Of a stretch of 64,000 nt of DNA, positions 24,597 through 62,322 are shown in pieces. Position numbers and translations under genes: made by a program. The DNA comes from Ariolimax columbianus. Its lineage: Eukaryota > Mollusca > Gastropoda > Stylommatophora > Arionidae. The notes under the pieces are model-generated. The model was not told where the DNA came from, did not search any database, and worked only from the letters and a program-made list of their open reading frames with translations. How positions within the stretch are numbered: position 1 is the first letter of the stretch; the number at the start of each line of letters is the position of its first letter. Where the stretch lies: contig JAVGWX010000007.1 of NCBI GenBank assembly GCA_036924085.1, positions 97,675,141-97,739,140 on the forward strand. Direction: 5' to 3'.

Positions 24597-24862
24597 TCAA
24601 TCGGCACTGTTATGGTTTGAAATAATCTGTCAGCACTGTTTTGGTTTGAAATAATCTGTCAGCATTGTTTTGGTTTGAAATATTATTTTACTTCTGCGTT
24701 CGTTCTCAATCTCCTGATACCAAGCGCTGAGCAGGGCTTTGCATGTAGCAGGATGTAGTCCGATGTAGTGCGATATTTGCACCTTTCGGTCCGACACATC
24801 CGACATCGGCCGCTTGAAATATTAAATTCGCACTGTTATGGTCTGAAACATTCTGTCATCGT
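24597..24862. repeat. 34-bp repeat, three units plus one split off by a SINE
   Basis: Units of the type GCACTGTTTTGGTTTGAAAT plus AATCTGTCA occur at 24604-24682. A further unit (CGCACTGTTATGGTCTGAAA) continues at about 24830, after the SINE inserted at 24686-24813. Confidence 0.75.
24686..24813 (-). mobile_element. SINE C copy (3' half) with 11-bp TSD
   Basis: 128-bp fragment matching the GAA-tail end of SINE C (GCGTTCGTTCTCAATCTCC, then the TGCACCTTTCGGTCCGACAC core in plus orientation). Flanked by the perfect direct repeat TTGAAATATTA at 24675-24685 and 24814-24824. It inserted within the 34-bp repeat, and its missing distal half suggests 5' truncation. Confidence 0.85.
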
Positions 24863-26312: not shown

Positions 26313-27807
26313 GGCTGGCTTGGCTTATTCATTCTCAATCTCCCGCTACCAAACACTGAAAGGGCTTAAGTAGCAGAATGTAGTCCAGAGAACGGAATAC
26401 GTTGTGTCGTAGTTTACAGCTTGACTGCGATATTTGCACCTTTCGGTCCAACATATCCGACTTCAGCAAGCATTTTTTTAGTACCGGGTTAGCATTCCTG
26501 TAACAGTTCCAGCCCAAGCATGAGCGTTTAGTGCAGGGGTGATGTGGTTGGCGACTCTGAGAACAAAGGTACCTGAATGCGTGCCAAGGTCACTGTCTGT
26601 CTGGACACTACGCCAAGGTCACTCACCGTCTCAACAAAGGAAAACGGAGTTGGGGGAAAGACTGTGTAGTTAGACTATGAACTGACCACTGGCGTTCCGA
26701 TTTGGGTAGTTGGGGATGAGTGACAGTCAAGTGGGCAGCAGAGAGCTGCGGTATTTGAGTGACAGGGTTCAGAGTAATTCGTAGCATTAGCGACTGATTG
26801 GGGCCATCCCCCCGATTTTCATTGGTCAGCTCTAATACTGCTTGAGTCTATATAACACTTGACAAAGTTTAGCTCAGGCAGACTGGCCATGAAGACGGAA
26901 TGAGAGCGAGAGAGATAAATTAGATAGGAGTCTGTTTAGCTCACCGACTTAGTAGAAGGGTGATTATTAGGCTGTTTTGATGAGTGTGTGATAGAACATG
27001 TCGCTCAACCAGCATATGCCTTGAGTCTGGACCAGCCGCTAAATACGGTTTCGGCGTCCTGTGTATAGATGTAATCAGAATGTATGTTGTATGTGCAGGA
27101 CACCTTTGGAACGAGGTATGTTCTGAGTGTACAGCTGTGTCTACGAGAGATTGAGATGTATATGTGCGTGTGTAGACACCGAGGGAACGATGTATGTTTC
27201 AGAGCGTGTGTATACGCAGATCGACTGAGTTGAGAGAGCATATGGGAGTATACGTAGAATATATTGAATGTATTATGTCCAGATCACCCGCTTGAGGGGA
27301 TCTGAGAAGGGTGTGTGATGTGTGTAAGATAATAGAACTGGGTTTTAGTCGTTGGGGATTCCATCAATAGCTAATGCTTAAATTTTCCGCTTTAGTTAAT
27401 ATTTATATTAACATATATATACTTATGAATATTTAGTTAAGATGACATATAATGTATTGTACTGTAATTTCATTGCACTCACTTTAATAGTGTTGTAAGA
27501 TTATGATCTAATAAATATGCCACCTGCTGTGTGCTATGTCATTTGCTGTGTGAGGTCATGGATGTTGTGGTTGAGTGTGGTGACGTTTTAGTTAGAATAC
27601 CCTAGTGGAAACCTGAGAACTGCTACATTCCCTCTTCGATCCCTTCTCCTTAGCCAGTCTGCCCTGCTGCAGCCTGTTATCCAGGATCACCGCGTGGAGG
27701 TGTAGAAGGGTCTTGGCAGCTTTTGTTCGCTGGCCCTGACACTAGCAGTCAGCTATGGGTCACTGACCACTGCAGCTCATGCGCTGCTCAGCATCGTGAT
27801 CCGTCTT
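26313..27807 (-). mobile_element. SINE C inside mariner 1, itself split by a solo LTR
   Basis: Two SINE C halves (about 26325-26498 and 27632-27790) join seamlessly when the LTR is removed and then match the uninterrupted copy at 60425-60778. A candidate duplication AGAAGTATT/AGAAGTACT lies at 26304-26312 and 27808-27816 (one mismatch). Without the LTR it is about 360 bp. Confidence 0.82.
26499..27627 (+). mobile_element. Solo LTR 1 (1129 bp)
   Basis: A long terminal repeat without internal retroelement genes. It starts TGTAACAG and ends CTGCTACA (TG...CA), with a perfect 4-bp target duplication TTCC at 26495-26498 and 27628-27631. A TATA-like TCTATATAAC sits near 26848-26857 and an AATAAA at 27510-27515, matching promoter and polyadenylation signals of an LTR. 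It shares its whole length with 36676-37885. Presumably left by recombination between the two LTRs of a full element. The superfamily cannot be determined from the LTR alone. Frames inside it, such as 27005-27241, are not genes. Confidence 0.88.
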
Positions 27808-34018: not shown

Positions 34019-34182
34019 CCACGACAGACAACCCGGTCTGCCACCCAGACACACATGTAGAGAAAATGGTTATGGAAACAATTAAAATGAACGAAGGAAG
34101 CAGACACGATTCAAATAAGCCACATACAGAAAATGAGTACAGAAGCAGACACGATTCAAATAATGCCTTTTAAAAAATATAT

Positions 34183-35773
34183 AGGGACGATGAGGCTAAT
34201 GTCTGGTCAGGCAAAACACACTGATCAGAGAATGTTAGCCTGGGTCAGGCAAAACACACTGATCAGAGAATGTTAGCCTGGGTCAGGCAAAACACACTGA
34301 TCAGAGAATGTTAGCCTGGGTCAGGCAAAACACACTGATCAGAGAATGTTAGTCAGGGTCAGGCAAAACACACTGATCAGAGAATGTTAGCCAGGGTCAG
34401 GCAAAACACACTGATCAGACAATGTTAGCCAGGGTCAGGCAAAACACACTGATAATAGAATGTTAGTCAGGGTCAGGCAAAACACACTGATCAGAGAATG
34501 TTAGTCAGGGTCAGGCAAAACACACTGATCCGAGAATGTTAGCCAGGGTCAGGCAAAACACACTGATCAGACAATGTTAGCCAGGGTCAGGCAAAACACA
34601 CTGATAATAGAATGTTAGTCAGGGTCGGGCAAAATACACTGATCAGAGAATGTTAGTCAGGGTCAGGCAAAACACACTGATCAGAGAATGTTAGTCAGGG
34701 TCAGGCAAAACACACTGATCAGAGAATGTTAGCCAGGATCAGGCACAACACACTGATCAGACAATGTTAGCCAGGGTCATGCAAAACACACTAATCAGAG
34801 AATGTTAGCCAGGATCAGGCAAAACACACTGATCAGAGAATGTTAGCCAGGGTCAGGCAAAACACACTGATCAGACAATGTAAGCCAGGGTCAGGCAAAA
34901 CACACTGATCAGACAATGTTAGCCAGGGTCAGGCAAAACACACTGATCAGAGAATGTTAGCCAGGGTCAGGCAAAACACACTATCAGACAATGTTAGCCA
35001 GGGTCAGGCAAAACACACTGTTCAGAGAATGTTAGCCAGGGTCAGGCAAAACACACTGATCAGACAATGTTAGCCAGGGTCAGGCAAAACACACTATCAG
35101 ACAATGTTAGCCAGGGTCAGGCAAAACACACTGATCAGACAATGTTAGCCAGGGTCAGGCAAAACACACTATCAGACAATGTTAGCCAGGGTCAGGCAAA
35201 ACACACTGATCAGACAATGTTAGCCAGGGTCAAGCAAAACACACTATCAGACAATGTTAGCCAGGGTCAGGCAAAACACACTATCAGACAATGTTAGATA
35301 GGGTCAGGCAAAACACAATATCAGACAATGTTAGCCAGGGTCAGGCCAAACACACTATCAGACAATGTTAGCCAGGGTCAGGCAAAACACACTGATCAGA
35401 CAATGTTAGCCAGGGTCAGGAAAAACACACAATCAGACAATTTTAGATAGGGTCAGGAAAAACACACTATCAGACAATGTTAGCCAGTGCAGGAAAAATA
35501 TACTGGTCAAGACCCTCACCTGACCTCCTCGTTGGTCGTCCTGGAAACGGGCTGTTGTCGAGGACAACAGTCTGGCTAGCAAGGTGAGGTTCGACGTGAT
35601 CCCCGTAATAGTGAGCGACACGCAGATGAAACTATGCATAGCACAACCGCCTGAGGGACCCCGATCTACCTTCATCGCCACGCTCGGAAAGTTACTGCAG
35701 CCCGCTACTTAACGTCCTTTTCAGGGCGCACAAAGGAGTAACCTACTCATTGTGGGCATTCGCAAACAACAAC
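34183..35773 (+). mobile_element. SINE-V copy 1: retroposon with about 34-unit internal minisatellite
   Basis: Shared 5' end (GGGACGATGAGGCTAATGTC), then a 37/38-bp minisatellite, then a shared body of about 280 bp (AAGACCCTCACCT, GGAAACGGGCTGTT, GACACGCAGATGAA, CTTAACGTCCTTTTCAGGGC, TACTCATTGTGGGCATTCGC) and a CAACAACAA tail. Flanking words AAAAAATATAT (34172-34182) and AAAAAACATAT (35774-35784) form a near-perfect duplication. Architecture and TSD support retroposition as one unit. I found no clear Pol III boxes. Copies 2 and 3 are at 44261-45330 and 47028-47378. The 76-residue frame at 35067 and the 82-residue minus frame at 35433 are not genes. Confidence 0.85.
34203..35495. repeat. 37/38-bp minisatellite inside SINE-V copy 1
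   Basis: Unit TTAGCCAGGGTCAGGCAAAA plus CACACTGATCAGACAATG. About 34 units, with ACTGATCAG shortened to ACTATCAG in many units of the right half. It contains the palindrome TGATCA. Confidence 0.93.
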
Positions 35774-35784
35774 AAAAAACATAT

Positions 35785-36251
35785 GATCGCTTCGGGTCCA
35801 TTAACAAACAAAAAAATCAAACAGCAGTCCAGAAAGATGTTATCGAATGAACTAATCAATAGATAGTCAGCTCATAAAATGGGGGTGGCAAATTAATGGA
35901 TATCAGGAGTTAATAACACAGCGTCCGGCAGTTACCAGGTCACGCGAATCGATCATTGGAAATCAATTCAAAAATCAAAATGTCCATAGCACTCTTCTTG
36001 TATAACACTCTCCCTTTATAACATCCGATATCGAAGTATTGCGTTGGTTGTGTGGTAACCGTTTATCTGACGAGCCTGTGGATTATACAGCCCATAGAAA
36101 CTCAAACGTCCACTGACTATCGCTAAGCAAACAATTGAAAATGCAAAAGCCAATCGTCTAGATTTGAAACAAAGACTACTTTTATCAGTTTCAGGGTAGT
36201 TTTATAGCTGCTGGCAAACACCGTTTAAAGTTAATTTCTTCTGCCCACTCT

Positions 36252-36326
<75 letters not shown>

Positions 36327-36671
36327 GTAATTCCTATTCTAATTGTCTGAGAAAAAAACAGAGCGGTAGATTACAGACAGTGTTGTAATATGATGATTTA
36401 GCAGATTCTCAAACAATTTAAGAGTTGCCAGACAAAAATGTCAAAAACATATTATTTTCTGAATTCAAATTTTTATTTCTTTATTCTAAAATGGTACCGA
36501 ACAGTCATAGACTTAGGGTCCTATTTTGACAAATAGGCTGTTAATAACAGGAATATTAATAAAGAATGTTTAAAGTAACGCTAATATATATTACATGCGT
36601 ACTTTATCAATAAACAAGTTATACACTTATTGTTTTATTTTATTTTTTAATTGCTTTTCTTTTTAAATGTT
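35785..36671. other. Unique AT-rich stretch with a CA/CT microsatellite
   Basis: Contains a CA repeat (36252-36281) directly followed by a CT repeat (36282-36327). No gene recognised elsewhere in the interval. Confidence 0.7.
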
Positions 36672-36675
36672 CGGA

Positions 36676-37104
36676 TGTAACAGTTCCAGTCGGAGCATGG
36701 ACGTTAAGGGCAGGGGTGATGGGGTTGTGACTCTGAGAACAAAGATACCTAAATGTGTTCCAAGATCACTCACCCTCTCGACACTAAGTCGACAAAGGAA
36801 AACGGGAGGTTGAAGGGAAGAATGTGTCTGGTACAGGTATGGGTTAGGAGCTCACCACTCTGGCGTTCCGATTTGGATAGTTGGAGGTTAGTGACAGACA
36901 GAGGCCATCGGGTCTTGCTGCGACATTTTAGAGTGACAGGAATTCAGAGTGATTCGTTCGAATAACAACTAAGTGGAGTTAGATCCAAACTAGAATGATG
37001 GCTGAGTCAGACAACCCCCAGAAGACCATTGGACAGCCCTGATACTACTTGAGACTATATAATACTAGGCAAAGTTTAACTGTTTAGCTTAATCAGACTG
37101 GCCT

Positions 37105-37159
<55 letters not shown>

Positions 37160-37885
37160 GCAGCTAGAAGACTGTTTCCTAAAGGAATGAGAGTTTAACT
37201 AGCAGACTGTTTAGCTCACAGACTTTCTAGAAGAGCGATTTATAGGCTGTTTTACGAATGTGTGAGGGATGGAATGAATTGCAGGGTGACTGAACCAGCA
37301 TGTGCCTTTGAGTCTTAGCCAGTCGCTCTATAAGGTGTATGTTAGGCATCATGTGACTAGAAGAGATCTGGATGTGTGTATGGTGTGTGTAGGACACCGA
37401 GGGAACGATGTATGTTCCGGAGCATGTGTATACGCAGATCGATTGAGTGTGTGATCACATGTGAGTATACGTCGAACAGATTGTGTAATGTCAAGATCAC
37501 CTGCCTGAAGGGATCTGAATGTATAATGTAACGATCACCTGCCTGAGGGGATCTGAGTGAATGCACAGAATACGATCGTGAAGACGAGTTTGTGAGAGTG
37601 TGGTGAATGTGCAGATAAAGGAACTGAGTGTAGCGGCTAGAAATGGGTTAGATATCATCTGGTGGCAATATTCAACAGCTTGTACTTATAACCTCCGAAA
37701 TCATTAATATTACATTATTATTGTTGTTATGATGTTATGTTTTGTTGGTTTTAGTGATGTTAATAAATGCGGACTATTACCTGCCGTTTGATACGTTATT
37801 TGCTGTGCGTGGTCTTGAATCATGTGGATGCACGTGGTAACATTCTAGATAGAAAAACCCCAGTGAAAACCTGGACTCTGCTACA
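36676..37885 (+). mobile_element. Solo LTR 2 (1210 bp)
   Basis: Same family as 26499-27627: starts TGTAACAG, ends CTGCTACA, with a 4-bp target duplication CGGA at 36672-36675 and 37886-37889. A TATA-like ACTATATAATAC is near 37054-37065 and AATAAA at 37762-37767. Longer than copy 1 partly because of a GA microsatellite (37107-37155). The shared block GGACACCGAGGGAACGATGT lies near 37391. No retroelement genes flank it. Frames at 36753-36965 and 37357-37566 fall inside and are not genes. Confidence 0.88.
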
Positions 37886-37889
37886 CGGA

Positions 37890-38104
37890 CTTAAAAACTC
37901 AACTTACCGGAGGTTTATTTAATTTATGTCAATATTGTAATAACATAAGCGAAATATCACATTTTTATTTAGGATGGTTAATTAAATTAAAACGAATATA
38001 TTCAAGAAATGATCTTGAAAAGACCAAAAATATGAAAGTTACATTCATCGTAAATGATGATAATGATCAATATTTGAACACAAACTGGAAGGCTTGATGG
38101 AAAC
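37890..38104. other. AT-rich spacer
   Basis: Short unique sequence between the solo LTR and the 29-bp array. Confidence 0.4.
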
Positions 38105-39106
38105 ATTGAAACTAGGTGTCAGCAAAAAGCCTCACGTCTACCAGGTGTCAGAAGAAAGCCTCAGCTCTACCAGGTATGAGCAGAAAGCCTCACCTCTACC
38201 AGGTATGAGCAGAAAGCCTCACCTCTACCAGGTGTCAGCAGAAAGCCTCACGTCTATCAGATGTCAGCAGAAAGCCTCACCTCTACCAGGTGTCAGCAGA
38301 AAGCCTCACGTCTATCAGATGTCAGCAGAAAGCCTCACCTCTACCAGGTGTCAGCAGAAAGCCTCACCTCTACCAGGTGTCAGCAGAAAGCCTCACCTCT
38401 ACCAGGTGTCAGCAGAAAGCCTCATCTCTACCAGGTGTCAGCAGAAAGCCTCACCTCTACCAGGTGTCAGCAGAAAGCCTCACGTCTACCAGGTGTCAGC
38501 AGAAAGCCTCACCTTTACCAGGTGTCAGCAGAAAGCCTCACCTCTACCAGATGTCAGCAGAAAGCCTCACGTCTATCAGATGTCAGCAGAAAGCCTCACC
38601 TCTACCAGGTGTCAGCAGAAAGCCTCACGTCTATCAGATGTCAGCAGAAAGCCTCACCTCTACCAGGTGTCAGCAGAAAGCCTCACGTCTATCAGATGTC
38701 AGCAGAAAGCCTCACCTCTACCAGGTGTCAGCAGAAAGCCTCACGTCTATCAGATGTCAGCAGAAAGCCTCACCTCTACCAGGTGTCAGCAGAAAGCCTC
38801 ATCTCTACCAGGTGTCAGCAGAAAGCCTCACCTCTACCAGGTGTCAGCAGAAAGCCTCACGTCTACCAGGTGTCAGCAGAAAGCCTCACCTTTACCAGGT
38901 GTCAGCAGAAAGCCTCACCTCTACCAGATGTCAGCAGAAAGCCTCACGTCTATCAGATGTCAGCAGAAAGCCTCACCTCTACCAGGTGTCAGCAGAAAGC
39001 CTCACGTCTATCAGATGTCAGCAGAAAGCCTCACCTCTACCAGGTGTCAGCAGAAAGCCTCACCTCTACCAGGTGTCAGCAGAAAGCCTCACCTCTACCA
39101 GGTGTC
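38105..39106. repeat. 29-bp minisatellite, about 34 copies, open in three frames
   Basis: Unit GGTGTCAGCAGAAAGCCTCA plus CCTCTACCA. With a period not divisible by 3 and no stop in any plus frame, frames of 352, 300 and 285 residues overlap and show the same 29-residue repeat (SRKPHLYQVSAESLTSTRC and following). Marker variants (CTCATCTCTACC at 38421 and 38798; CACCTTTACC about 377 bp apart) reveal a 13-unit (377-bp) duplication. There is no signal peptide, domain or start context to support a protein. Confidence 0.93.
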
Positions 39107-39420
39107 ATCATCATCATCATCATCCATCACCATCATCAGTCCCGTAACCTAGAAGGTCGTTGAGGCACTGGTATTGCAGTTTGTCGAATCAGTTCACGCA
39201 TACGTCTCGGTTTTTCACCAGTGTATTAGTTTCAACTATAGACCTTCTCGTCCACTCTTTTATATTGTCCTCCCATCTCTTTTTTGATCTTCCTCTCCCA
39301 CACTTCCCAGGCACAGTGCCTTGCAGGACGGTCTTTGTCAGTTCCAACGATCAGGATATAAGTCCATACCATGTTAATTTTCGTGTTTTTACTTTAGTCA
39401 GTAGGTTTTTATACTTATCC
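39107..39420 (-). mobile_element. RTE-type LINE 3' end with GAT-type tail
   Basis: The minus strand begins with a GATGATGATGATGATGA tail and, read backwards, encodes remnants of the C terminus: KRRWEDNIKEWTRRSIVETN, preceded by a GRPKK-like basic patch. KRWEDNIKEWT is characteristic of RTE-group C termini. It abuts the last unit of the 29-bp array. Confidence 0.72.
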
Positions 39421-39828
39421 TTCCCAACAATTTCAAGAACACTCTCGTTTATAAAGTGATCCAGGCATGAAATGCCAAAAATTCTTCACGATCAATCTTA
39501 TTTCCATTTTGCAAATTTTACGTTTTAGTGCAGCCATCAAGAGTCCAAGTCTCACAAGTGTAGAGGTATACCGAGGTATAAAAAATAAATATATTTTTAT
39601 CAATTTATATCTCATAATTTCTTAAATATATATTTATCAAGATAGGCATGTATTTCTTAATGCACTATAGTAAAAGTCTCTTGTTTGTGTATATAGGTAA
39701 CCTTAAGTAGTCTTATGTTTACATATAGGTAGCCTTGTATAGTTTTTGTTTGTATGTAGTTTACTTTGTAAGGTTTTCTGTCTGTATGTAAGCAACCTTA
39801 TATAGTCTTTTGTTTATATGTAGTTTAA
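39421..39828. other. AT-rich spacer with diverged TTAGTATGTT-type words
   Basis: The phrase TAGTCTTTTGTTTATATGTA recurs loosely at about 39672, 39712, 39745 and 39805 (about 40-bp spacing), a decayed minisatellite. No gene. Confidence 0.45.
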
Positions 39829-39995
39829 CTTAACTTAACTTAACTTAACTTAACTGGTTGTATACAGACTCTGCAGGGTCTTCTAAACCAGTATAAAGAC
39901 GTTAGGTTAGGTTAGGTTAGGTTAGGTTAGGTTAGCTTAGGTTAGGTTAGGTTAGGTTAGGTTAAGTTAAGTTAAGTTAAGTTAAGTTAAGTTAA
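39829..39995 (+). repeat. LINE-C terminal block between TTAAC and TTAGG/TTAAG pentamer runs
   Basis: TTAACTTAAC repeats (39831-39856) lead into the LINE-C terminal block (GGTTGTATACAGACTC to CCAGTATAAAGACG, 39857-39903), followed by about 13 GTTAG units and then GTTAA units to 39995. The block identifies the pentamers as a LINE 3' tail, not a chromosome end. The TTAGG version equals the arthropod telomere motif by sequence only. Confidence 0.85.
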
Positions 39996-39997
39996 GT

Positions 39998-40032
39998 GTC
40001 AGCAGAAAGCCTCACCTTTACCAGGTGTCAGC
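39998..40032. repeat. Detached unit of the 29-bp array
   Basis: GTGTCAGCAGAAAGCCTCAC followed by CTTTACCAGGTGTCAGCA is one full unit plus part of the next, 890 bp beyond the main array. It implies the sequence 39107-39997 was inserted into, or replaced part of, the array. Confidence 0.8.
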
Positions 40033-40435
40033 AAGTCTCTGTTGTGACAACTCTCACCGCTGATGAAACACCTGAACATCAACGTGTCAACAAAGCAACA
40101 CATGATATTTATGTATTATACAATCTTTGTGCTAACAATATCGAACGTGGTTCTTATCTACGGTACTGGAGACGTCTGAACTGAAATGTCTAAGAAAATT
40201 CTTTAGGGTTTCAAGGAAATGAAAAACTATGATGTTTATAGGAAAGATAACATGAGATACGATGACGCTGAAAATATGGTTAGAAATAGCCTTTGTGCTG
40301 AATAGATTTCAAGACAGGAAATAACTGAATAACTACCACTGCACTGCAAAAACACTGGCTTACAACAACTGACACAACACACTTGGTTCAAGAAGACAAG
40401 CCGCATTGCAGCACAATTGGACAGAACAAAAATAT
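40033..40435. other. No recognisable feature
   Basis: Unique sequence. The small frames have no motif. Confidence 0.35.
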
Positions 40436-40442
40436 AGTAAAG

Positions 40443-40597
40443 CCACTGTCGAAGACAGATGTGTCGGACCGACAGGTGCAAATATCGAAGTCAAAATGTA
40501 AACTAGCAACACAACACATTCCTTTCTCCGCACATCATGCTACTTGCAAAGCCCTGTTCAGGTGGGAGATTGAGAACTAACACAGAAGAAGAAGAAG
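40443..40597 (+). mobile_element. SINE C copy, plus strand, GAA tail
   Basis: Carries GATGTGTCGGACCGACAGGT and the following GCAAATATCGAAGTC core, then CATGCTACTTGCAAAGCCCT and GGGAGATTGAGAACTAACAC, ending in a GAAGAAGAAGAA tail. Candidate short duplication AGTAAAG at 40436-40442 and 40598-40604. Confidence 0.8.
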
Positions 40598-40604
40598 AGT
40601 AAAG

Positions 40605-41269
40605 TGAGTTTGTTTGTGTTTCTGGAGAATAGTGCATATAGCTCCATATTATAAACAATGAGACTGGTGAAGGTAAGGGACAAATTGGTTTGTAGTTTTA
40701 AAGAAGGGCAAGAAAATACAAAAGACAAGACAGTCTTTATCTTTAACAAAAATGTGCTCAAATAACTGTTGGCAGGGTAAGATTTATGATAATGAACAAT
40801 AAAACAGTGACATTAGAATGATTGGCGGCACAGAAAAAGGATAGTCCACAGTGACACTGTCCCCCATGTTTCATCTCGTCATTGTGTACTGTTGCTATGG
40901 CGACCATGTCTAATTTATCACAATTGTTTGGCTCTAAACGTTTTTCTGGTGTTTGAATTGATCTGATGTGGCCAGGTTTTCATACTTTTCTCTGTCCATG
41001 TTGTGGTCACAAACCAACCAGAAGGCTACATGTGCTCAAGTTAATGGAACATGGTCAGTATGAAACCAATTTCGATGACCAATGGGTCACATTAAGACAA
41101 TTTTGATGAAAAAAGGTCAGAGAGAGCTTAAATGATCCAAGGTCTATATGGAGACAATTTTCATGACCCAAGGGCCATGTGAAGACAAATTACAAAAAAT
41201 GATTTACTCCTGGGGAAATATGCCCAACAGGGGAGTGTGAATAATTCAGGATACAGAAAGAGGGAAAGC
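40605..41269. other. Spacer with weak 45-bp repeats
   Basis: Around 41060-41190 the motif ATGACCCAAGGTC/GACAATTTTGATGA recurs about three times. No gene recognised. Confidence 0.4.
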
Positions 41270-42010
41270 ATTGAGTGACTTTTGGACAAAATCAGAGAAC
41301 TAGACAGAGAATTACTAATCAAATTGAGTTACACACATATAGACATCAACTTTATTCAAATATATGCACCAACGGCGGAGGGATCAGAAGAGGATGTGGA
41401 CACATTTTATGGTGAACTTGAAATGGCCATGACGCAATAGAAGAACCACGAGATGACGGTCGTTCTGGCAATCTCAAAGCAAAGGTGGAGGGGGGACGGG
41501 AAGATGGAGGTCATCACTGGGTGGTACGGAATGGGAGAAAGGAATGAAAGAGACTATAGACTGATGGAATGGGCCAAAATACATGACATGATCATAGCAC
41601 ATGGTTTCAAAACCATCCTAGGCGCTTCTGGACATGAAAAAGCCCGGGAAACAATGCTGGTGTCCGGAAGATTCTGAAATGGGCTTGTTTCGGCAATGAC
41701 CAGGCCAGTAACCAGATTGCAACGGTAATCACATGCCAATAACCATCAAGATAGGAGTAAAATTTACAAATGTAAGGAAGTCACCACAGAATATGAGATT
41801 ATACATAGACACAGAAATGATAGAGAGGTGTAGTGCAGCCGTAATGAATGTATACAACACAGGGGGGAGAGAGAGAGGAAGGTTGGTGTGCAACAAAAGT
41901 CTATCAGTGGATTTAAGGAAGATAATTCTTGTATGCTACATGGAACCAATACTGACATACGATAGTGAATCACGGACGGACAATCATCAAGCATGTAGGA
42001 CAATCATACT
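41270..42010 (+). mobile_element. LINE-B-like remnant: endonuclease segment joined to RT tail
   Basis: The left part encodes an endonuclease-like stretch (APTAEGSEEDVDTFYGELEM, then TVVLAISKQRWRGDGK, which resembles the VLGDFNAKVG box after a shift). The right part encodes LRKIILVCYMEPILTYDSES, the post-RT segment usually far downstream of the endonuclease. Most of the RT is therefore deleted. Stops and shifts throughout. Confidence 0.65.
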
Positions 42011-42019
42011 ACAACATGT

Positions 42020-42790
42020 CTTTTGGCTGCCCCCAATAGAGATGATAAACTTTATGGGTCAAATGTTTGATGTTATGGCTGCCAACAACCCCCAATGTTT
42101 GGTATTCTGGCTGCCCACGTCAGAGAAAACAAACTTTATGGGCCCAATGTTTGGTATTTGGCTGTCAACGACATAGAAAACAAACTTTATGGGCCCAATG
42201 TTAGGTATTCTGGCTGTCAATGACAGAGAAAACAAACTTTATGGGCCCAATGTTTGGTATTCTGGCTGTCAACGACATAGAAAACAAAACTTTATGGGCC
42301 CAATGTTTGGTATTCTGGCTGTCAATGACAGAGAAAACAAACTTTATGGGCCCAATGTTTGGTACTCTGGCTGTCAACGACAGATAAAACAAACTTTATG
42401 GGCTCAATGTTTGGTATTCTGGCTGTCAATGACAGAGAAAACAAACTTTATGGGCCCAATGTTTGGTATTCTGGCTGTCAATGACAGAGAAAACAAACTT
42501 TATGGGTCCAATGTTTGGTATTCTGGCTATCAATGACAGAGAAAACAAACTTTATGGGTCCAATGTTTGGTATTCTGGCTGACGACAGAGAAAATAAACT
42601 TTATGGGTCCAATGTTTGGTATTCTGGCTATCAATGACAGAGAAAACAAACTTTATGGGTCCAATGTTTGGTATTATGGCTGCCAACGACCCCCAATGTT
42701 CAGGATTCTGGCTATCAACGACAGAGAGAACAAACTTTATGGGTCCAATGTTTGATATTCTGGCTGCCCACGATAGAGAGAACAAACGCT
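42020..42790. repeat. 52-bp minisatellite, about 14 copies
   Basis: Unit ACTTTATGGGCCCAATGTTT plus GGTATTCTGGCTGTCAACGACAGAG in two pieces and AAAACAAA. Starts within 20 bp of the LINE-B remnant and decays to the right. Frames of 60-147 residues on both strands are artefacts. Confidence 0.9.
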
Positions 42791-43207
42791 GACTGGAATT
42801 TTGTATATTTTATTCAAATTTTATATACAAATGTGTCAGATACAAACAACATGGAGACATTCACTTAAATAAAAAGACAGCAATACATTAAAATGTTTTC
42901 AAATAATATATTTAAAAAATGTTTTTCATGAACATAGACATGTATGTGGTTAATGCCAATAAGCAAATACAAGAAACCAACATACACACATACTTACACC
43001 ATCATTTAGTCATGTGCTCTTATTTGACCAATACTAACACGAAGTTCAGCTGACTTCCGCTAATGCAAATCTTCTGCTACTAACCAAAATGTCCAACAGG
43101 AAATTTTATTTCAGCATCTCCCAAAATTGTTTATTTTGCTGCTTTCAAACAAATAATGCAAACATTTTTGTTTTCAGTTGGCACATACATTAATTGCTGA
43201 AAGCTAT
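42791..43207. other. No recognisable feature
   Basis: AT-rich spacer between the array and a LINE fragment. Confidence 0.35.
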
Positions 43208-44055
43208 TTATTCTGTATTATTTAGATGCCAGGGAGAATATTTCAGGGCATAGGCCATTGACAACTCTCCTCCAACAAGTTCGACATTCAGCTGTCCTTT
43301 CTGCCTCTCTCCAATTGAGGTCCAAGGGCAAAGTTCATTTTCACATTCTCTTTTCCGGGTGTTTCTTGGCCTACCTCTCTTCCTCTTCCTTTGTGGATTC
43401 CAAGTCAGGGCCTGTCTGGCCACGTTTGATGGTGCTTTCTATAGTGTGTATCCTACCAAACCCCATTTCCTACATTTGATCTGTTGCTAGACTGGTTGTT
43501 GTTGGCCCCTTACCCATAGGTCTTCATTCCTTGCCATGTCTTGCCAGCCTATACCAATTACCCTCTGTAGACATTTATTGTCGAACAACTGGAGTTTCCT
43601 CTTTATTGCCTTTGTCGTTCTTCAAGTACCAGCTCTGTACAGGGGTACTGACTTGACATTTGGAATTGACCAATCTTAACTTTGTATTAGTCTTTATTTC
43701 CCTGGATTTCTATATATTATTCAGTAATAAGAATGCTGTCCTTGCATGTCTAATTCTAGCCCTTACATCTGCCTCTGGGCCCTCTGAAGGATCAATTGTG
43801 CTGCTCAAATATGTGAAGGTATCCACCTCTACCAGTGCCTCACCTCAAAGCATGACTGGCTCTTTGCTTAAGGTGTTGATTTTAACAGTTTGGTTGTCTT
43901 CTTGATAATTTTTAGTCCCAGTTAAGCTGAATTCTACTATTTAGTTTTGCTTGCATCTGGCTATGGATGTGACAGCAGTACCAAGTTGTCTGCATAGTCC
44001 AGATACTCTAAATGTGATTCATTTTACTCCTGTATCATATATCGGCTATAGTTTC
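43208..44055 (-). mobile_element. LINE-B 3' half, minus copy
   Basis: In element order from 44055 down: LEYLDYADNLVLLSH (motif C-like YADN; the canonical family residue here is FADD), a GLKIIKKTTK stretch, WIPSHI/YLGS-like remnants, the post-RT region, and at 43423-43208 ARQALTWNPQRKRKRGRPRN with ELSMAYALK at the end. The last segments match 19600-19930. The YADN reading and many stops show decay. Confidence 0.75.
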
Positions 44056-44248
44056 TAGAGTTTTCCTTCAAACCAAGATGGCTACACCACTAAGAAGGAT
44101 TGTAGCCTGTGTCCATGGTGGCTCTGTTGATATATAGATAGATGAAAGATTCAATGGTACTGAAGGTCAAATGTTGATAAAAACATATGTAGGAAATGGC
44201 ACAGTGACCGCACCAGGTGTGTAAATACCCGTGAGTTGAGAGTCTTCT
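44056..44248. other. Short unique spacer
   Basis: No feature recognised before the left duplication of SINE-V copy 2. Confidence 0.35.
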
Positions 44249-44260
44249 ACCCTAGAGGAG

Positions 44261-45330
44261 GGGAGGAAGACTTAACGTCTGGTCAGGCAAAATATACTGA
44301 TCAGACATGTTAGTCAGGGTCAGGCAAAATATACTGATCAGACATGTTAGTCAGGGTCAGGCAAAATATACTGATCAGACATGTTAGTCAGGGTCAGGCA
44401 AAATATACTGATCAGACATGTTAGTCAGGGTCAGGCAAAATATACTGATCAGACATGTTAGTCAGGGTCAGGCAAAATATACTGATCAGACATGTTAGTC
44501 AGGGTCAGGCAAAATATACTGATCAGACATGTTAGTCAGGGTCAGGCAAAATATACTGATCAGACATGTTAGTCAGGGTCAGACAAAACATACTGATCAG
44601 ACATGTTAGTCAGGGTCAGGCACAATATACTGATCAGACATGTTAGTCAGGGTCAGACAAAACATACTGATCAGACATGTTAGTCAGGGTCAGGCAAAAC
44701 ATACTGATCAGACATGTTAGTCAGGGTCAGGCAAAATATACTGATCAGACATGTTAGTCAGGGTCAGGCAAAATATACTGATCAGACATGTTAGTCAGGG
44801 TTAGACAAAACATACTGATCAGACATGTTAGTCAGGGTCAGGCAAAATATACTGATCAGACATGTTAGTCAGGGTCAGGCAAAATGTACTGATCAGACAT
44901 GTTAGTCAGGGTCAGGCAAAATATACTGATCAGACATGTTAGTCAGGGTCAGGCAAAATATACTGATCAGACATGTTAGTCAGGGTCAGGCAAAACATAC
45001 TGATCAGACATGTTAGTCAGGGTCAGACAAAACATACTGGCCAAGACCCTCACCTCGGTTTCCTAGTAGCCCTTCCTGGAAACGGGCTGTTTTCCTGGCA
45101 GCCTGGTTAACGAGGTAAGGGAACGGCGTTTTCCCCGTAGTAGTGAATGACACGCAGATGAAGCCACGCATAGCACAACTGCCTGGAAGACCCAAGTTCA
45201 CCTTCATCAGCACACTAAGGATGTGAGGAAAGCTACTACAACCCGCAGCTTAATGTTCTTTTCAGAGCGCACAAAAGAGTAACCTACTCATTGTGGGCAT
45301 TTGCAAACAACAACAACAACAACAACAACA
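44261..45330 (+). mobile_element. SINE-V copy 2 with about 20 internal units, 12-bp TSD
   Basis: Begins GGGAGGAAGACTTAACGTCT and enters a minisatellite of about 20 units (44283-45035). It continues with the shared body (CAAGACCCTCACCTCG, CCTGGAAACGGGCTG, GACACGCAGATGAAGCC, AGAGCGCACAAAAGAGTAAC) and ends in AAC repeats. It is bounded by the perfect duplication ACCCTAGAGGAG at 44249-44260 and 45331-45342. That TSD and the AAC tail indicate target-primed retroposition and place the minisatellite inside the mobile unit. Confidence 0.92.
44283..45035. repeat. 37-bp minisatellite inside SINE-V copy 2
   Basis: Unit TTAGTCAGGGTCAGGCAAAA plus TATACTGATCAGACATG. More homogeneous than the array in copy 1 and fixed for different variants (TATACT versus CACACT; AGTCAGGG versus AGCCAGGG). 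Confidence 0.93.
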
Positions 45331-45342
45331 ACCCTAGAGGAG

Positions 45343-45954
45343 TTAGACTGCAGTTAGTAAACTCTTACAACATGCTCTCAGTGTGGAAGTGATCCTATTC
45401 TAGTCTCTGTCCCACATAGAACTCTTCCAAGGCAAATATTTTATGAAAGCGTTTTCAATTTTCAAGGTCATTAAATTACAAACTAGTTAACCTCTGTGTA
45501 CAAAGATGCAACTGTAATCACCCTGCTTTTTAAGCCTTGTTATTCCATCGAAATTTCATTAATGTTTTAATGAAATAAGTAACGTAATGATTTTTAAATT
45601 CATACCTAACAAATGACAAAATAATTTCGTGATAAATTTATCAATTCAGCACACTGTATAGTAAAGCAATAGTAATTGAATTTTTCCAATAGATTTGCTC
45701 ATAGATGATCGATCAGGACTGCAACATTAAGGTACACTATCCAAGCATTTGAAACCTGCATTCGTTATCAATGTTAAGTGTACCTAATCAATGTTACATC
45801 TAATTTTTAGTATTTATTATATTTTTCCTAAAAACATTTTACAATAGCAGAGGGAAAAAAAAGATATTTAGGAAAAGTAGAAATAAAATAAATGTGATTG
45901 CTGGTTTTCTTTTCTATTTTTCTTGTTTTTGTACCAGACTTGCAGAAGTCTACT
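45343..45954. other. No recognisable feature
   Basis: AT-rich unique sequence. Confidence 0.35.
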
Positions 45955-46350
45955 GAATAACAGAACAACTCAATAACACAGGACAACCCAATAACACAGG
46001 ACAATCCAATAACACAGGACAACCCAATAACACAGGACAATCCAATAACACAGGACAATCCAATAACACAGGACAATCCAATAACATAGGACAATCCAAT
46101 AACACAGGACAATCCAATAACATAGGACAATCCAATAACATAGGACAATCCAATAACATAGGACAATCCAATAACACAGTACAACCTAATAACACAAGAC
46201 AATCCAATAACACAGGACAACCCAATAACACAGAACAACCTAATAACACAGAACAATCCAATAACACACGACAATCCAATAACACAGAGCAACCCAATAA
46301 CACAGAGCAACCCAATAACACAGAGCAACACAATAACACAAAACAACATG
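45955..46350. repeat. 18-bp minisatellite AATAACACAGGACAATCC, about 22 copies
   Basis: Uniform 18-bp units. Hydrophobic six-residue repeats (GLSCVI, DCPVLL) in minus-strand frames of 135-198 residues could mimic membrane proteins but lack any independent support. Confidence 0.93.
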
Positions 46351-46429
46351 ATAACACATAAAAACATGATCACAAAACTTGAAAAAAACCCAGAACACAT
46401 TACCATTCGCAAAAATACACACATGTAAC

Positions 46430-46600
46430 TGCAACATTAAGTTCATTGCCAAATAATGCATGTACTTTGTTACAACATTCGTTTCAATTTCAAATAATGC
46501 ATGTACTTTGTTACAACATTCGTTTCAATTTCAAATAATGCATGTACTTTGTTACAACATTCGTTTCAATTTCAAATAATGCATGTATTTTTCGACTGCA
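46430..46600. repeat. 51-54-bp repeat, about three and a half units
   Basis: AAATAATGCATGTACTTTGT followed by TACAACATTCGTTTCAATTTC recurs from 46449 to 46590. Confidence 0.85.
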
Positions 46601-47014
46601 TCTGTCATTTCCTTCTAAATAATATATATATATATACGAAATGCGATTGCATAATCATTTCCAAACTACACATACTAAATGTGGCTGGCTGCTTGATTGG
46701 GAACAAATGAGTGTGAAGACATAACAAATATGACTACCCCATATAAACTTGACAACTAAGTACTTGCGATGACGACCATCTGCTAAAACCACTTGAGAAA
46801 CTTAGTGAGAATTTCGTCATCATGATAATTCTAGAAAGGAAATATAATATTTTTCTTCCTGCGTTCTGAAATCAGCTGCAAAAATTTTAAGATTATAAAA
46901 ATGTGTTGAATAATTAACATTACCCCTGCTTTGCTTAAGAGAAGTAACTTAATGCTTGATAAACAAAATCTGTCAAATTAGAGTTAAAAACTTCAGTGTT
47001 GCAAGAATCATTTT
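46601..47014. other. No recognisable feature
   Basis: AT-rich sequence with a short TA repeat near 46622. Confidence 0.35.
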
Positions 47015-47027
47015 AATATCACCTTCT

Positions 47028-47378
47028 GGAGAGGAAGACTAACATCTGGTCATGCAAAATATACTGAACAAGACATGTTAGTCAGAGTCAGGAAAAACAT
47101 ACTGGGTAAGACCCTCACCTCGACTTCCTAGTAGCCTTCCCTGGAAACGGGCTGTTTTCATGGCAGCCGGCTAACGAGGTGAGGGATCGGCGTGATTCCC
47201 GTAGTAGTGAGTGACACGCAGATGAAGCCAAGCATGGCACAAACGCCTGGAGGACCCCGGTCTACCTTCGTCAGCACGTTCGGTATGTGAGGAAAGCTAC
47301 TGCAACCCGCCACTTAACGTCCTTATCAGGGCACACAAAAGAGTAACTTACTCATTGTGGGCATTCACAAACAACCAC
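47028..47378 (+). mobile_element. SINE-V copy 3, minimal array (about 1.5 units), 13-bp TSD
   Basis: 351-bp copy: GGAGAGGAAGACTAACATCT, one and a half minisatellite units (GGTCATGCAAAATATACTGA...), then the shared body and a short CAAACAACCACA tail. The perfect duplication AATATCACCTTCT at 47015-47027 and 47379-47391 fixes both ends. This copy defines what the element looks like without array expansion. Confidence 0.92.
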
Positions 47379-47391
47379 AATATCACCTTCT

Positions 47392-52030: not shown

Positions 52031-52539
52031 TCCCCAGCCTATCTGCAAGGCAGCAGTTGTTTACGATCAGAGTTTTCTCTCCTATGGAAGTTGTCTTACC
52101 AGACTATCGAGTCTTCACTACTCGTGTCTATAGGGTGCAATGATGATATGTGATATATGAGATGGACTGGTTTACCCGGAAGAGAGGCAGTCCAGTGTGT
52201 CTGTATCCCAGGATCGTCACGTCCTGCCAGAAACGTAGCATTTGCATGTGAGTGGGGTATCTCTTTTTCCCTTTATTTTCTTGGCTTCTATGCAGGGATG
52301 GTACGCCTAGCATTCCCCGCCACCTGGGGTGTTGACACAGTGGGGCAGGTGTGCAATGTCCGCTGGTCTGCATCTCTTCTGCGTCCAGTATGATAGTTAT
52401 ATGGCTGATAACGTACAGAGGTAGATATCGTAGCCGGAGTGCATTCAGCCAGAGGACAAGCCTGGTAATGTCACAGAGATGTTGTTCGCCTGGTGTGCGG
52501 ACAACTCTCATGGTCAGTGGTTGAGTCTTGACAGTTCAC
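52031..52539. other. Unassigned moderately GC-rich sequence
   Basis: No recognisable motif. The 127-residue minus frame (52128-52511) has no domain I recognise. Confidence 0.35.
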
Positions 52540-52905
52540 AGTGAGGTGGCTGCTCTACTGTTTTCGACACCCCGACCAGGTACTAAGTCTTTGGTTAGTG
52601 TTTTTCGCACCCCATCGCCGTATAGGGTGAGTATCAAGCAGTTGTCCGCCCGCTTTGATTTGCGGGCGGCAAGGGCCTCTTACTGTGGCTCTACCTGATA
52701 GGGCTGGGGCGCAAGCCCCAGGTCCCGAGCATGTAGGAGCCTCCCATTGCAGTGGTGCTGAGATTTTGGGCGGGATTGCGGCTTACAAGGGTTCGGCCGT
52801 AATCCCCCACATGGTAGCCTCGCGCCCTTGGCTTATCAGCCTGGTACGTGAACCAAAGTGTCTGCGGCTCCTCTCGATTTGAGCTGGTTTTCCGTAGCAA
52901 AGCCC
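52540..52905. other. GC-rich structured segment with strong hairpins
   Basis: Perfect inverted repeats: CCGCCCGC/GCGGGCGG around an 8-base loop (52646-52669) and CTGGGGC/GCCCCAG around GCAA (52704-52721). On the plus strand the second has a GNRA-type tetraloop. The segment is flanked by decayed 18S-hybrid modules to its right. It could be the end of an unrecognised mobile element or a spacer RNA structure. The 88-residue minus frame (52691-52957) has no known domain. Confidence 0.55.
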
Positions 52906-53104
52906 TGTCATTTGTAGGGTAAAACTGACCTGTCTTCAGATGATCTATTTCCAGCACCCATTCACTATTTGGTCAGACGAATTTATTGAGGGCTTTTTGT
53001 TTGTCAATGACCAGGTATTTGAAATCTGCGGTTTCTGCGGGGTTAAAACACGATTTCCGTAGCGTTCTTTCATTTGAGTGTTTGAGAGCTGACTTGTCAT
53101 CCGT
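52906..53104. other. Decayed fourth hybrid-module remnant
   Basis: TTCCAGCACCCATTCACTAT at about 52949 resembles the hairpin loop of the following modules (TTCCAGCACATGTTCTCTAT at 53299), suggesting an older module. The rest is unassigned. Confidence 0.45.
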
Positions 53105-53557
53105 GAGTCTAATACCAGCGTACGTTCATTATTAGACCCAAACGGCAGTGCTCTCGATTTGTCAGTTGTTCTACAGTATTGGCGTGTTCAGTCAAATTAA
53201 GCCGCAGGTTCCACACCTGGTGGTGCCCTTCCGTCAATTCCCTTAGCGAGACAATCAAGTTTCTTAGAGGGTAGCCCCAAAATTTTCGAGGGTCTAATTC
53301 CAGCACATGTTCTCTATTAGACCCCACGAAGGTGTACTTTTTGATAGTCATTCTGCAGTATTGGCGTGGTAAGTTAACTTAGGTCTCAGGCTCCACTCCT
53401 GATAGTGCTCTTCCGTCAATTCCTTTATCAAACACTGGATGCAGACAGAACCGAGCCACAGGGGGCATAACCCCAGATTTCTGGGGGTCTAAGTCCAGCA
53501 CCAGTTCCATATTAGACCCCAGAAGAGTGGTCTCGGCATGTCAATCATTTCAGTGTT
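53105..53557 (-). repeat. Tandem modules containing 18S-like segments (about 181-194-bp period)
   Basis: Each module contains a hairpin (GGGTCTAAT...ATTAGACCC at 53105-53140, 53289-53325 and 53483-53520), and the first two also contain a segment resembling 18S around the universal CCGTCAATTCCTTTAAG site (53181-53244 and 53362-53427). The third hairpin is followed by the true 18S at 53558. Copies one and two have several substitutions from 18S. Sequence just 3' of the 18S-like part (minus strand CACGCCAATACTG, CACGGGCAACACTG) is shared by all three modules and differs from normal 18S, so the junction itself was duplicated. Confidence 0.75.
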
Positions 53558-53583
53558 GCCCGTGTTGAGTCAAATTAAGCCGC

Positions 53584-53632
<49 letters not shown>

Positions 53633-54798
53633 TTTGCAACCATACTTCCCCCGGAACCCAAACACTTTGGTTTCCCGGAAGCTGCCCGCAGAGTCATCGA
53701 AGCAACTCCTGCGGATCGCTAGTCGGCATCGTTTATGGTCAGAACTACGACGGTATCTGATCGTCTTCGCGCCTCTGACTTTCGTTCTTGATTAATGAAA
53801 ACATTCTTGACAAATGCTTTCGCAGTAGCTCGTCTTGCGGCGATCCAAGAATTTCACCTCTAACGCCGCAATACGAATGCCCCCGTTTGTCCCTGTTAAT
53901 CATTACCTCCAGTTCCGAAAACCAACAAAATAGAACCGAGGTCCTATTCCATTATTCCATGCACCATTATTCAGGCAGCCGAGGCCTGCTTTGAACACTC
54001 TAATTTTTTCAAAGTAAACGCGCCGGCCACCCAGGACGCTCAGCGAAGAGCACCCGTGGGAGAGAGCCGGCAGACGGTAGGGCAGGAGACAACGGGCAGT
54101 GAACCGGCGCGAGCCGGACCGCCCGCCTGCGCCTGAGATCCAACTACGAGCTTTTTAACTGCAACAACTTTAATATACGCTATTGGAGCTGGAATTACCG
54201 CGGCTGCTGGCACCAGACTTGCCCTCCAATAGATCCTCGTTAAAGGGTTTAAAGTGTACTCATTCCAATTACGGGGCCTCGAAAGAGTCCCGTATTGTTA
54301 TTTTTCGTCACTACCTCCCCGTGCCGGGAGTGGGTAAGTTGCGCGCCTGCTGCCTTCCTTGGATGTGGTAGCCGTTTCTCATGCTCCCTCTCCGGAATCG
54401 AACCCTGATTCCCCGTTACCCGTTACAAACATGGTAGGCATGTCACGTACCATCGACATTTGATAGGGCAGACATTTGAAAGATGCGTCGCCGGCACATG
54501 AGGCCATGCGATCAGCACAAAGTTATCCAGAGTCACCAGTGGGGACGCCGCAACCCCGCGAGGGGAAACGACGATTGGATTTGAACTAATAAAAGCGCTC
54601 TTTCCGGGAGGGTCGAGCTTGGTAAGCATGTATTGGCTCTAGAATTGCCACAGTTATCCAAGTAGGATCGTGTCATCTAAGGAACCTCGACTGATTTAAT
54701 GAGCCATTCACGGTTTCACCGTGAGACAGTGTGAACTTAGACATGCATGGCTTAATCTTTGAGACAAGCATATGACTACTGGCAGGATCAACCAGATA
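53558..54798 (-). rRNA. 18S rRNA: 18S (small-subunit) rRNA, 5' two thirds only
   Basis: The minus strand starts TATCTGGTTGATCCTGCCAG at 54798, the conserved 5' end, and continues through universal blocks such as GGAGCTGGAATTACCGCGGC (plus strand, about 54184), the V4 region with a GC-rich insert (54020-54120), and CCGTCAATTCCTTTAAGTTT (53606). The mature rRNA would run on for several hundred bases, but normal 18S sequence stops at about 53558, where a non-18S repeat takes over. Preserved sequence suggests a recent or functional-derived copy, but as present it cannot yield a complete rRNA. Small frames across it are artefacts. Chimeric assembly is an alternative explanation for the break. Confidence 0.95.
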
Positions 54799-56740: not shown

Positions 56741-56964
56741 CAACAGGGAAATCTGTGACAAAGATGATGTCGGCAGGTCTACAGAATGGTAGCTTGTGAT
56801 TACTTTCCATACCTGGAGAAGCAATCTTACCATGAAAAAAAAATTGTGTCTGCCAAACTGGACATAGGCGGGTTTCGTACCCAATATATGGGTAAATCAA
56901 GATATTATATCAAAATAGCTCAAGATCAGGATAGTTTCAAAGAATAGTTCAGTAAAGATAGATA

Positions 56965-58185: not shown

Positions 58186-58408
58186 AAATATTATATAAAA
58201 ATAGCTCAATAGCTTGAAAGAATAGTTCATAGTTTAGATAGATCAAGATAACTCAAGATAGTATATCAGAATAGCTCAAGATAAGGATAACCATGAGATA
58301 GATCAAACTCACTAAGACTTACACTGACTTAAACCTTACTGACAGATTATTTAAAATTTGACCTGATCTTTATTGAGTGAACAAATCATGTGGTTGTTCA
58401 GTACAATT
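58186..58408. other. Degenerate 55-bp repeat fading into unique sequence
   Basis: AATAGCTCAAGATA words persist to about 58290. Nothing else seen. Confidence 0.5.
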
Positions 58409-61949: not shown

Positions 61950-62322
61950 CATGTATCTGGCCTTAATAAACTTTTTTGAACTAACATAGGTCATACTAGA
62001 ATCTAGTTGTGGTAACCTTCTACCTTCTTTTGCCAGTCTGTCTGCCTCCTTGTTGCCTTGAATGTTACAGTGGGACGGAACCCACTGTACCGTGACTCTT
62101 TTGGGTGTACACTGCTGGCATAGTTGACAGAGTACTGATCTTAAATCATTTAGTTCTGTATTTTTCTGGCTTTTTAGTACGCAACCACAGACAGGGCACC
62201 TGTAATAGACTATCTGGCTTTCATTACTTTTGCCTGTCAGCATTGCTTCTACTGCAGCTTTCAATGCCTCTATCTCTGCTCTGAAATTGCTTGAAAATTT
62301 TCCAGTTGCCACTGACAGTGTT

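Follow-up and report, generated by a model that had tools for sequence, protein, structure and literature searches.

The window analysed here, a stretch of 64,000 nucleotides (nt) from the gastropod Ariolimax columbianus (contig JAVGWX010000007.1, positions 97,675,141 to 97,739,140), harbors three copies of a dispersed element designated V, which have their 5' head, their body and a CAA/AAC tail in common. All three lie on the forward strand. Copy A (34184-35773; locus L009 of the genome survey) comprises 34 minisatellite units plus a partial one, copy B (44260-45330) 20 units plus a partial one, and copy C (47028-47378) one unit plus a partial one. They are bounded by target site duplications (TSDs) of 11-13 bp, namely AAAAAATATAT (34172-34182) and AAAAAACATAT (35774-35784) on the left and right of A, ACCCTAGAGGAG (44249-44260 and 45331-45342) around B with 12 of 12 identical positions, the G at 44260 being assignable to either TSD or element, and AATATCACCTTCT (47015-47027 and 47379-47391) around C with 13 of 13. 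The window alignments agree in this respect with a first-pass annotation of the locus, which had described three copies with a common 5' edge, body, tail and TSDs, and had counted about 34, 20 and 1.5 units. Its statement that the array moves with the element also holds, because the array is located inside the TSDs, and the combination of TSDs with a simple tail is indicative of target-primed retroposition rather than rolling-circle transfer, as it had proposed. At a probability of roughly 0.83, we interpret V as a short non-autonomous retroposon with a predicted hepatitis delta virus (HDV)-like ribozyme at its 5' end, whose array is placed inside the joining segment J1/2 of the ribozyme and which would be mobilised in trans by a long interspersed nuclear element (LINE).

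The flanks of the three copies exhibit no mutual likeness in alignments. Their bodies are 85% (B/C), 77% (A/B) and 79-80% (A/C) identical, and the unit length is 36-38 bp in A and 37 bp in B. The TSD of A contains one mismatch, is of low complexity and weak if taken alone, and it was missed by an exact-match flank test. A comparison with false left flanks at every third window position (21,161 in all) provided chance matches of at least 12 bp to the right flank of C at two positions and to that of B, which contains a CAA run, at 14. No Rfam match to tRNA, 5S or 7SL RNA was found in the V bodies at E up to 10, ARAGORN reported none, and a B box is absent from V within one mismatch; an A-box-like match with zero mismatches is located inside each of the three bodies, downstream of the ribozyme. 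The label of a short interspersed nuclear element (SINE), under which V had initially been filed, is therefore apt for its size and copy number and not for its promoter type. Pattern scans of viral contigs and of genome contigs returned no match.

The distribution of V was investigated in the species' own genome (2.29 Gb, 401 contigs). Copy C, which the first-pass annotation had singled out as a query, yielded 10,381 first-look candidates and two further V queries 9,963 and 6,808, of which 40 per query were scored. The 40 scored places of the C query are dispersed over 18 contigs, 39 of them with 88-90% identity and the window itself with 100%. A total of 68 V loci (8 + 30 + 30) was fetched, including the window copies; they were taken as the best-scoring places rather than drawn at random, and the first eight are biased to short arrays because the query carried 1.5 units. 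The head was recognised in 65 loci (the exceptions are L022, L040 and L066). TSDs of at least 9 bp are present in 28 of these 65 headed loci, compared with 6 of 1300 mismatched flank pairs, and TSDs of at least 11 bp in 16 of 65 compared with 0 of 1300. In 20 of the 28 TSD-bearing loci, the start of the head and the end of the TSD are at most one base apart. An array between two modules is also typical of Helentron-type non-autonomous elements with satellite-like repeats (HINEs, pearl-like), which are known from the Pacific oyster (PMC7492417). However, the accessible part of that report describes HINEs as free of TSDs and as preferring TT sites, whereas V ends in a CAA tail and its TSDs are far more frequent than in the mismatched-flank control, and we consider an affiliation of V with this class to be extremely improbable.

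The body of each V copy starts with a core that resembles HDV-like ribozymes. In A (35514-35589, forward strand) it ranges from the 5' to the 3' strand of P2 and comprises P3, the loop L3 (TCCTCG), the 3' strand of P1 (P1'), the motif GGAAAC, P4 and the joining segment J4/2 (GGCTAG). The core of C (47112-47185, forward strand) contains an 11-bp P2, P4 and J4/2 (GGCTAA) with its C at 47171, and that of B (45047-45121, forward strand) was located with a core descriptor. In Rfam, the HDV ribozyme family RF00094 is the top match of A, full-length and at the body start, with a score of 19.3 bits below the cut-off of 50 (E 0.42 to 1.4). Taken alone this match is chance-like, and the fold was therefore tested. 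The descriptor covers P2, P3, L3, J1.1/4, P4 and J4/2 without a P1 term; it was written with the match of A already known and applied to both window strands. Its four best scores are those of A (30.2), C (26.2), a locus D that belongs to a second family (25.0) and B (23.9). The best scores in 25 shuffled windows range from 20.5 to 25.4, so that A and C are above all of them, while the score of D was reached in three and that of B in six. A covariance model built from the cores of 39 of the 68 loci retrieves A with E 3.4e-22 (A is among the model-building copies) and finds D at full length with E 4.8e-7; the only further window sequences that it matches are B and C, each on both strands (reverse strand: E 0.0084 for C, 0.13 for B). 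An alignment of 42 of the 68 loci, namely 1.5-unit copies with a good head, shows the expected catalytic C of J4/2 in 40 of them and a column conservation of 0.974 in J4/2 and J1.1/4 versus an average of 0.888. The segments P1, P2, P3 and P4 of the V cores are arranged in the standard order of the nested double pseudoknot. Apart from scores above the Rfam cut-offs, V has the HDV-like ribozyme features that were tested, and we regard it as the carrier of a predicted ribozyme.

The 5' end of V, as defined by the TSDs, coincides with the start of the ribozyme P1. In A, the 5' strand GGGACGA (34184-34190) pairs at 7 of 7 positions with P1' at 35536-35542 (TCGTCCT), the first pair being G.U, and among 1412 upstream positions the best partner of P1' is formed by the seven bases with which the element starts, one base past the TSD. 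The corresponding strands on the forward strand of the other copies are GGGGAGG (44260-44266) and CCTTCCT (45071-45077) in B, with 7 of 7 pairs, and GGAGAGG (47028-47034) and CTTCCCT (47136-47142) in C, with 6 of 7. An initial placement of P1 adjoining P2 was rejected, with scores out of 7 of 4.0 (A), 3.6 (B), 3.0 (D) and 5.6 (C). The 28 loci with a TSD of at least 9 bp have seven P1 pairs in 11, six in 13, five in two and four in two cases; six or seven pairs are accordingly found in 24 of 28, compared with 5.25% of randomly placed points for which the same offsets were allowed. Since the element opens with the 5' strand of P1, cleavage is predicted at its very 5' end, as in R2 elements. Two V subfamilies are distinguished by their P1 pairs, GGGACGA with TCGTCCT and GGGGAGG with CCTYCCT (CCTCCCT or CCTTCCT), and the helix has hence changed on both strands. 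An exchange of heads and P1' between the subfamilies, performed for 61 of the 68 loci (24 A type, 37 B type), reduces the pairing from 6.43 to 4.17 and from 6.22 to 5.43. In the 42 aligned loci, 90.5% of the P1 cells are paired versus a shuffled mean of 80.4, a value that none of 500 shuffles reached, and two-sided changes occur at pairs 4, 5 and 7, i.e. at three of seven.

The minisatellite is an insert within J1/2 of the predicted ribozyme, because P1 would bring together the sequences on either side of the array. The 38-bp minisatellite of A (34205-35509, forward strand) is located in a J1/2 of about 1323 nt and the 37-bp minisatellite of B (44281-45039, forward strand) in one of about 777 nt, while the J1/2 of C comprises about 77 nt; the overall range is 4 to 1323 nt. 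Its lower end is represented by locus L066, which lacks an array and in which P1 (7 of 7 pairs) and P2 are separated by the four nucleotides AAGA, with a TSD of 10 bp. A hairpin designated P1.2 directly follows P1. In A it is formed by the head arm and the first unit (34193-34241, forward strand; z -4.0), and none of 300 shuffles was as stable in either A or B. The pairing energy of the units with the head arm is -20.9 kcal/mol for units 1-20 of B and ranges from -9.3 to -25.3 kcal/mol in A. The head showed no bias towards units close to P2, as the two halves of A have values of -20.5 and -19.3 and B is flat at -20.9 with a last unit of -14.0. Growth of the array from one end was dropped as a scenario as well (Spearman test for polarity of divergence, p 0.69 in A and 0.14 in B).

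Most fetched copies contain about 1.5 units. The tabulation of TSDs and unit counts envisaged by the first-pass annotation supports TSD-flanked insertion of V and reveals long arrays to be a minority of the fetched copies: among the 57 headed loci of the body queries, the distance from head to core exceeds 200 nt in 14 (226-1359), is 109-118 nt in 36 and shorter in seven. Eight of the 14 long-array loci have 10 to 34 unit junctions, mostly spaced by 35-39 bp, in four the spacing is 97 bp or mixed, L045 contains three junctions, and the head of L038 is doubtful. One example of array dynamics is the pair L049 (contig C154) and L051 (contig C13), which apparently represents one V insertion with flanks about 92-100% alike, present as an allele, a haplotig or a duplication. 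The two differ by a single junction (10 versus 11), and whole units can thus change after insertion. Another example is the 97-bp tandem repeat of L024 and L028, which extends from the first base of the element (G1) through the 5' strand of P2 to GAC without any flank between the repeats; in L019 and L035 the repeats are mixed. The exact start of this unit at G1 is indicative of a molecule with its end at that base and suggests template jumping from a processed 5' end. Tentatively, and with somewhat less than even odds, the array could function as a length-variable domain of a self-cleaving ribozyme, in which a single 5' arm picks among tens of near-identical 3' arms for P1.2, making cleavage possible at any length and perhaps tuning its rate by the unit number. 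The 97-bp modules would then suggest that, on reaching the 5' end made by the ribozyme, the reverse transcriptase jumps back into the ribozyme sequence, so that the ribozyme itself would seed tandem repeats.

A second family, S2, carries a related 5' module. The 5' ribozyme of its copy at locus D, with the P1 strand GGATCAC, is located on the reverse strand (27641-27803; core 27710-27641) and was detected by RF01787, the V model and, at rank three, the descriptor. The rest of this element (26327-26497, reverse strand) lies beyond an insertion of about 1.1 kb, which parts it from the ribozyme. An nhmmer profile, for which three of the five copies were used, located a further S2 copy without ribozyme part at 40430-40600 (forward strand) and others at 60430-60600, 62310-62490 and 24681-24827 (all reverse strand). 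The match of D to the Rfam family RF01787 (drz-agam-1) is full-length with 30.5 bits and E 7.2e-5, below the cut-off of 37, and D is also a weak nhmmer match to the V profile (E 5.6e-4). A genome search with RF01787, in which 56 of 309,238 candidates were scored, found one place above the cut-off (41.8 bits, E 4.6e-4), while 14 control genomes remained silent; this place is the 5' end of an S2 copy. The S2 query gave 1,428 first-look candidates, and 39 of the 40 scored places, i.e. those besides the window's own, are 96-98% identical to it. Base 2 of the query (GGATCAC) is the start of 38 of the 40 scored places, and when the window copy is compared with 12 fetched ones, the flanking sequences cease to be alike right before GGATCA (12) or GGGTCA (1). 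An extra G precedes GGATCA in 10 of the 12 genome copies, where the window copy has a C. The S2 P1 reads GGGATCA/TGATCCT with a first pair G.U as in V, its 7 of 7 pairs counting the preceding G. In the genome copies the ribozyme is followed immediately by the SINE-like body, of which the window contains five occurrences, and 8 of 12 have a TSD of at least 9 bp. The bodies of V and S2 are alike over about 35 bp (81% for A, 75% for C, not significant in B), while their tails differ (CAA in V, GAA or AAGCC in S2). Judged from these alignments, V and S2 appear to have the type of 5' ribozyme in common, with the P1 of S2 representing a third sequence.

These results also bear on the resemblance to SVA and pearl elements that the first-pass annotation had pointed out and that turned out to be superficial; V opens with an HDV-like ribozyme fold and has its array in J1/2. 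A composite SINE of the SVA type, in which the minisatellite is merely embedded and a ribozyme is missing, would account for the variable internal array, the TSDs and the simple tail. It is very improbable in view of the descriptor scores, the drz-agam-1 matches in S2, the match of the V model to D and the position of P1 at the 5' terminus, and the long array is moreover missing from most fetched copies.

Several observations weigh against our interpretation of V as a ribozyme-headed retroposon. B has a T at 45107 where the catalytic C is expected (GGTTAA), C carries one mismatch each in P1 and P3, and the V cores fall short of the Rfam cut-offs, as the 19.3 bits of A exemplify. Neither B nor C has a match to a ribozyme family of Rfam at E up to 10, and the genome search with RF00094 found none, the control genomes being equally without a match. 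In B, a site with 7 of 7 pairs located four bases upstream scores slightly above the claimed P1, and in C three other places outscore it. In C, 17 of 300 shuffles were as good as the P1.2 hairpin, which is therefore weak in this copy. The count of three two-sided changes in P1 is not beyond that of shuffled alignments (mean 2.6; 263 of 500), the two-sided changes in P2, P3 and P4 are likewise within the shuffled range, and the shuffles had no control for relatedness. P3 is out of register in the A type, where a slide by one position is better (78.0 versus 72.6%). The homology of the J1/2 segments of D and V is doubtful, their similarity score having been reached by 36 (C), 101 (A) and 1 (B) of 500 shuffles. 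TSDs of 9 bp are missing in 37 of the 65 headed loci, and a LINE partner of V was not found, although no genome-wide search for it was made. Finally, the P1 pairing within the subfamilies is no better than shuffled (5000 of 5000 for the A type, 3229 of 5000 for the B type), and the covariation therefore rests on few events at the subfamily level.

The same lack of coupling between P1 and P1', the low Rfam scores and the deviation of every window copy from an ideal core (the missing C in B, the mismatches in C and GGCTAG as J4/2 in A) would also be compatible with a relic. According to this alternative V descends from a ribozyme-bearing element, its RNAs now acquire their 5' ends otherwise, for instance through a promoter located internally in head or array, and the array itself would be either neutral or similar to a promoter. 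We consider such a history unlikely, because the P1 complementarity is maintained with different letters in the two subfamilies, the catalytic C and the J4/2 and J1.1/4 columns are conserved as outlined above, and the starts of the heads agree with the ends of the TSDs within one base in most TSD-bearing loci. A decay of copies after their insertion is expected in dead copies, and the missing coupling within subfamilies fits this expectation.

The proposed life cycle of V as a ribozyme-headed retroposon would start from outside promoters, whose transcripts run through the element, and predicted self-cleavage at G1 would free its RNA from the longer transcript. A LINE protein would recognise the CAA-tailed 3' end and copy the RNA up to G1, so that even copies of 1.6 kb could be full length. 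The minisatellite may have originated by expansion of a J1/2 segment that begins with the long P1.2 hairpin, each unit being able to give the 3' arm of P1.2 to the single 5' arm in the head. With this redundancy, P1 and P2 could remain in proximity almost regardless of the array length, which could explain the tolerance of J1/2 for lengths from 4 to more than 1300 nt. The growth of the array would probably reflect whole-unit changes after insertion together with template jumping.

Short elements headed by an HDV-like ribozyme have been reported among the R2 relatives in rDNA (PMC3414825) and in trypanosomatids (PMC4035085), and V may work like the R2 short internally deleted elements (SIDEs) and the SIDERs. 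According to the accessible text of the first report, R2 SIDEs and R2/R1 hybrid SIDEs of Drosophila are like V short and non-autonomous, carry an HDV-like ribozyme at the 5' end and terminate in the manner of a LINE at the 3' end, and the hybrids have TSDs of 14 bp and a J1/2 that may be large (PMC3414825). R2 SIDEs are R2-derived and occupy fixed sites of the 28S gene, whereas V and S2 are dispersed; they are likened by layout, and the tandem array in J1/2 distinguishes V from the R2 SIDEs described there (PMC3414825). In the available part of a study on R2 ribozymes, the cleavage site is set by the P1 pairing, the spacing of P1 and P1' ranges from 23 to over 700 nt with a J1/2 of 216-498 nt in the silkmoth, and a silkmoth R2 lost its cleavage when the catalytic C was replaced by U; a J1/2 with a tandem array as in V is not described in that part (PMC3774820). 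The drz-Agam ribozymes of the mosquito (RF01787), to whose member drz-agam-1 the S2 ribozyme matches, include drz-Agam-2-1, which according to the accessible portion of the report combines an extended P2 with a P1.2 stem in J1/2 and hence has the same layout as V (PMC4908430). V and S2 differ from what is presented there by a P1 far upstream of the start of the Rfam model, and V also by its array. The trypanosomatid elements NARTc, RIME and SIDER resemble V in being short retroelements headed by an HDV-like ribozyme, and the accessible text depicts SIDER2 with a 77-nt signature that is present twice (PMC4035085), while V contains the J1/2 unit or the 97-bp module from P1 to P2 many times; the two are likened by their organisation. 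SVA and LAVA elements have in common with V an insertion of the non-long terminal repeat (non-LTR) type and a variable internal tandem array, as far as the available text goes (PMC4432496), but the array of V interrupts a ribozyme fold, and the likeness is one of layout. The metazoan retrozymes, finally, are portrayed in the accessible part of the source as non-autonomous non-LTR elements with self-cleaving ribozymes and in this respect resemble V, but their hammerhead motif belongs to another ribozyme class (PMC7229834).

An element of this kind was not described in the accessible parts of the literature on ribozymes, minisatellites and self-cleaving retrotransposons, subscription papers being mostly outside this coverage. 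V and S2 are two dispersed SINE-looking families with thousands of first-look candidates, and they exhibit a predicted ribozyme fold where a promoter of RNA polymerase III would be expected. The ribozyme head, if active, would explain exact 5' ends of the RNA whatever the array length, and it would offer a structural reason for the survival of a minisatellite within a mobile element without destroying the latter. The copies of V also provide a natural series of J1/2 segments from 4 to 1323 nt for probing the control of HDV-like ribozymes by peripheral domains.

The insertion that splits the S2 element of locus D (26499-27618) is flanked by a 6-bp duplication (GGAATG), and a relative in opposite orientation was read by eye at about 36660-37640. 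A LINE-like open reading frame (ORF) of 434 amino acids (59033-60337) ends near TACGAAGAAGAAG, and a similar ORF is located on the other strand (62706-63206); both were recognised by eye. The S2 tail resembles the end of the former ORF at 60337 (ACGAAGAAG) over about a dozen bases only. An S2 insertion between the two ORFs (about 62313-62490) has 13-bp repeats (CACTGACAGTGTT), again read by eye. The window also contains a rearranged or deleted rDNA fragment on the reverse strand (52503-54795) with a partial 18S gene (model positions 4-1116 of 1831) and the 3' end of the large subunit gene (3005-3399 of 3401), as well as long minisatellites at 4967-10858 (53 bp x 111), 12526-17940 (40 bp x 137) and 56909-58186 (55 bp x 23). 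A search of 24 arrays for flanking repeats, aimed at other array-bearing retroposons, provided two notable candidates. The 28-bp array at 11597-12528 is flanked by an exact 12-bp repeat (TATGAGGTATCT), which may be due to chance among 24 arrays. The 18-bp array at 45960-46378 is located in an insertion of about 700 bp (45718-46441) with a perfect 14-bp direct repeat (ACTGCAACATTAAG) at 45718 and 46428; no simple tail was seen, and it is perhaps an array-bearing insertion of a different kind.

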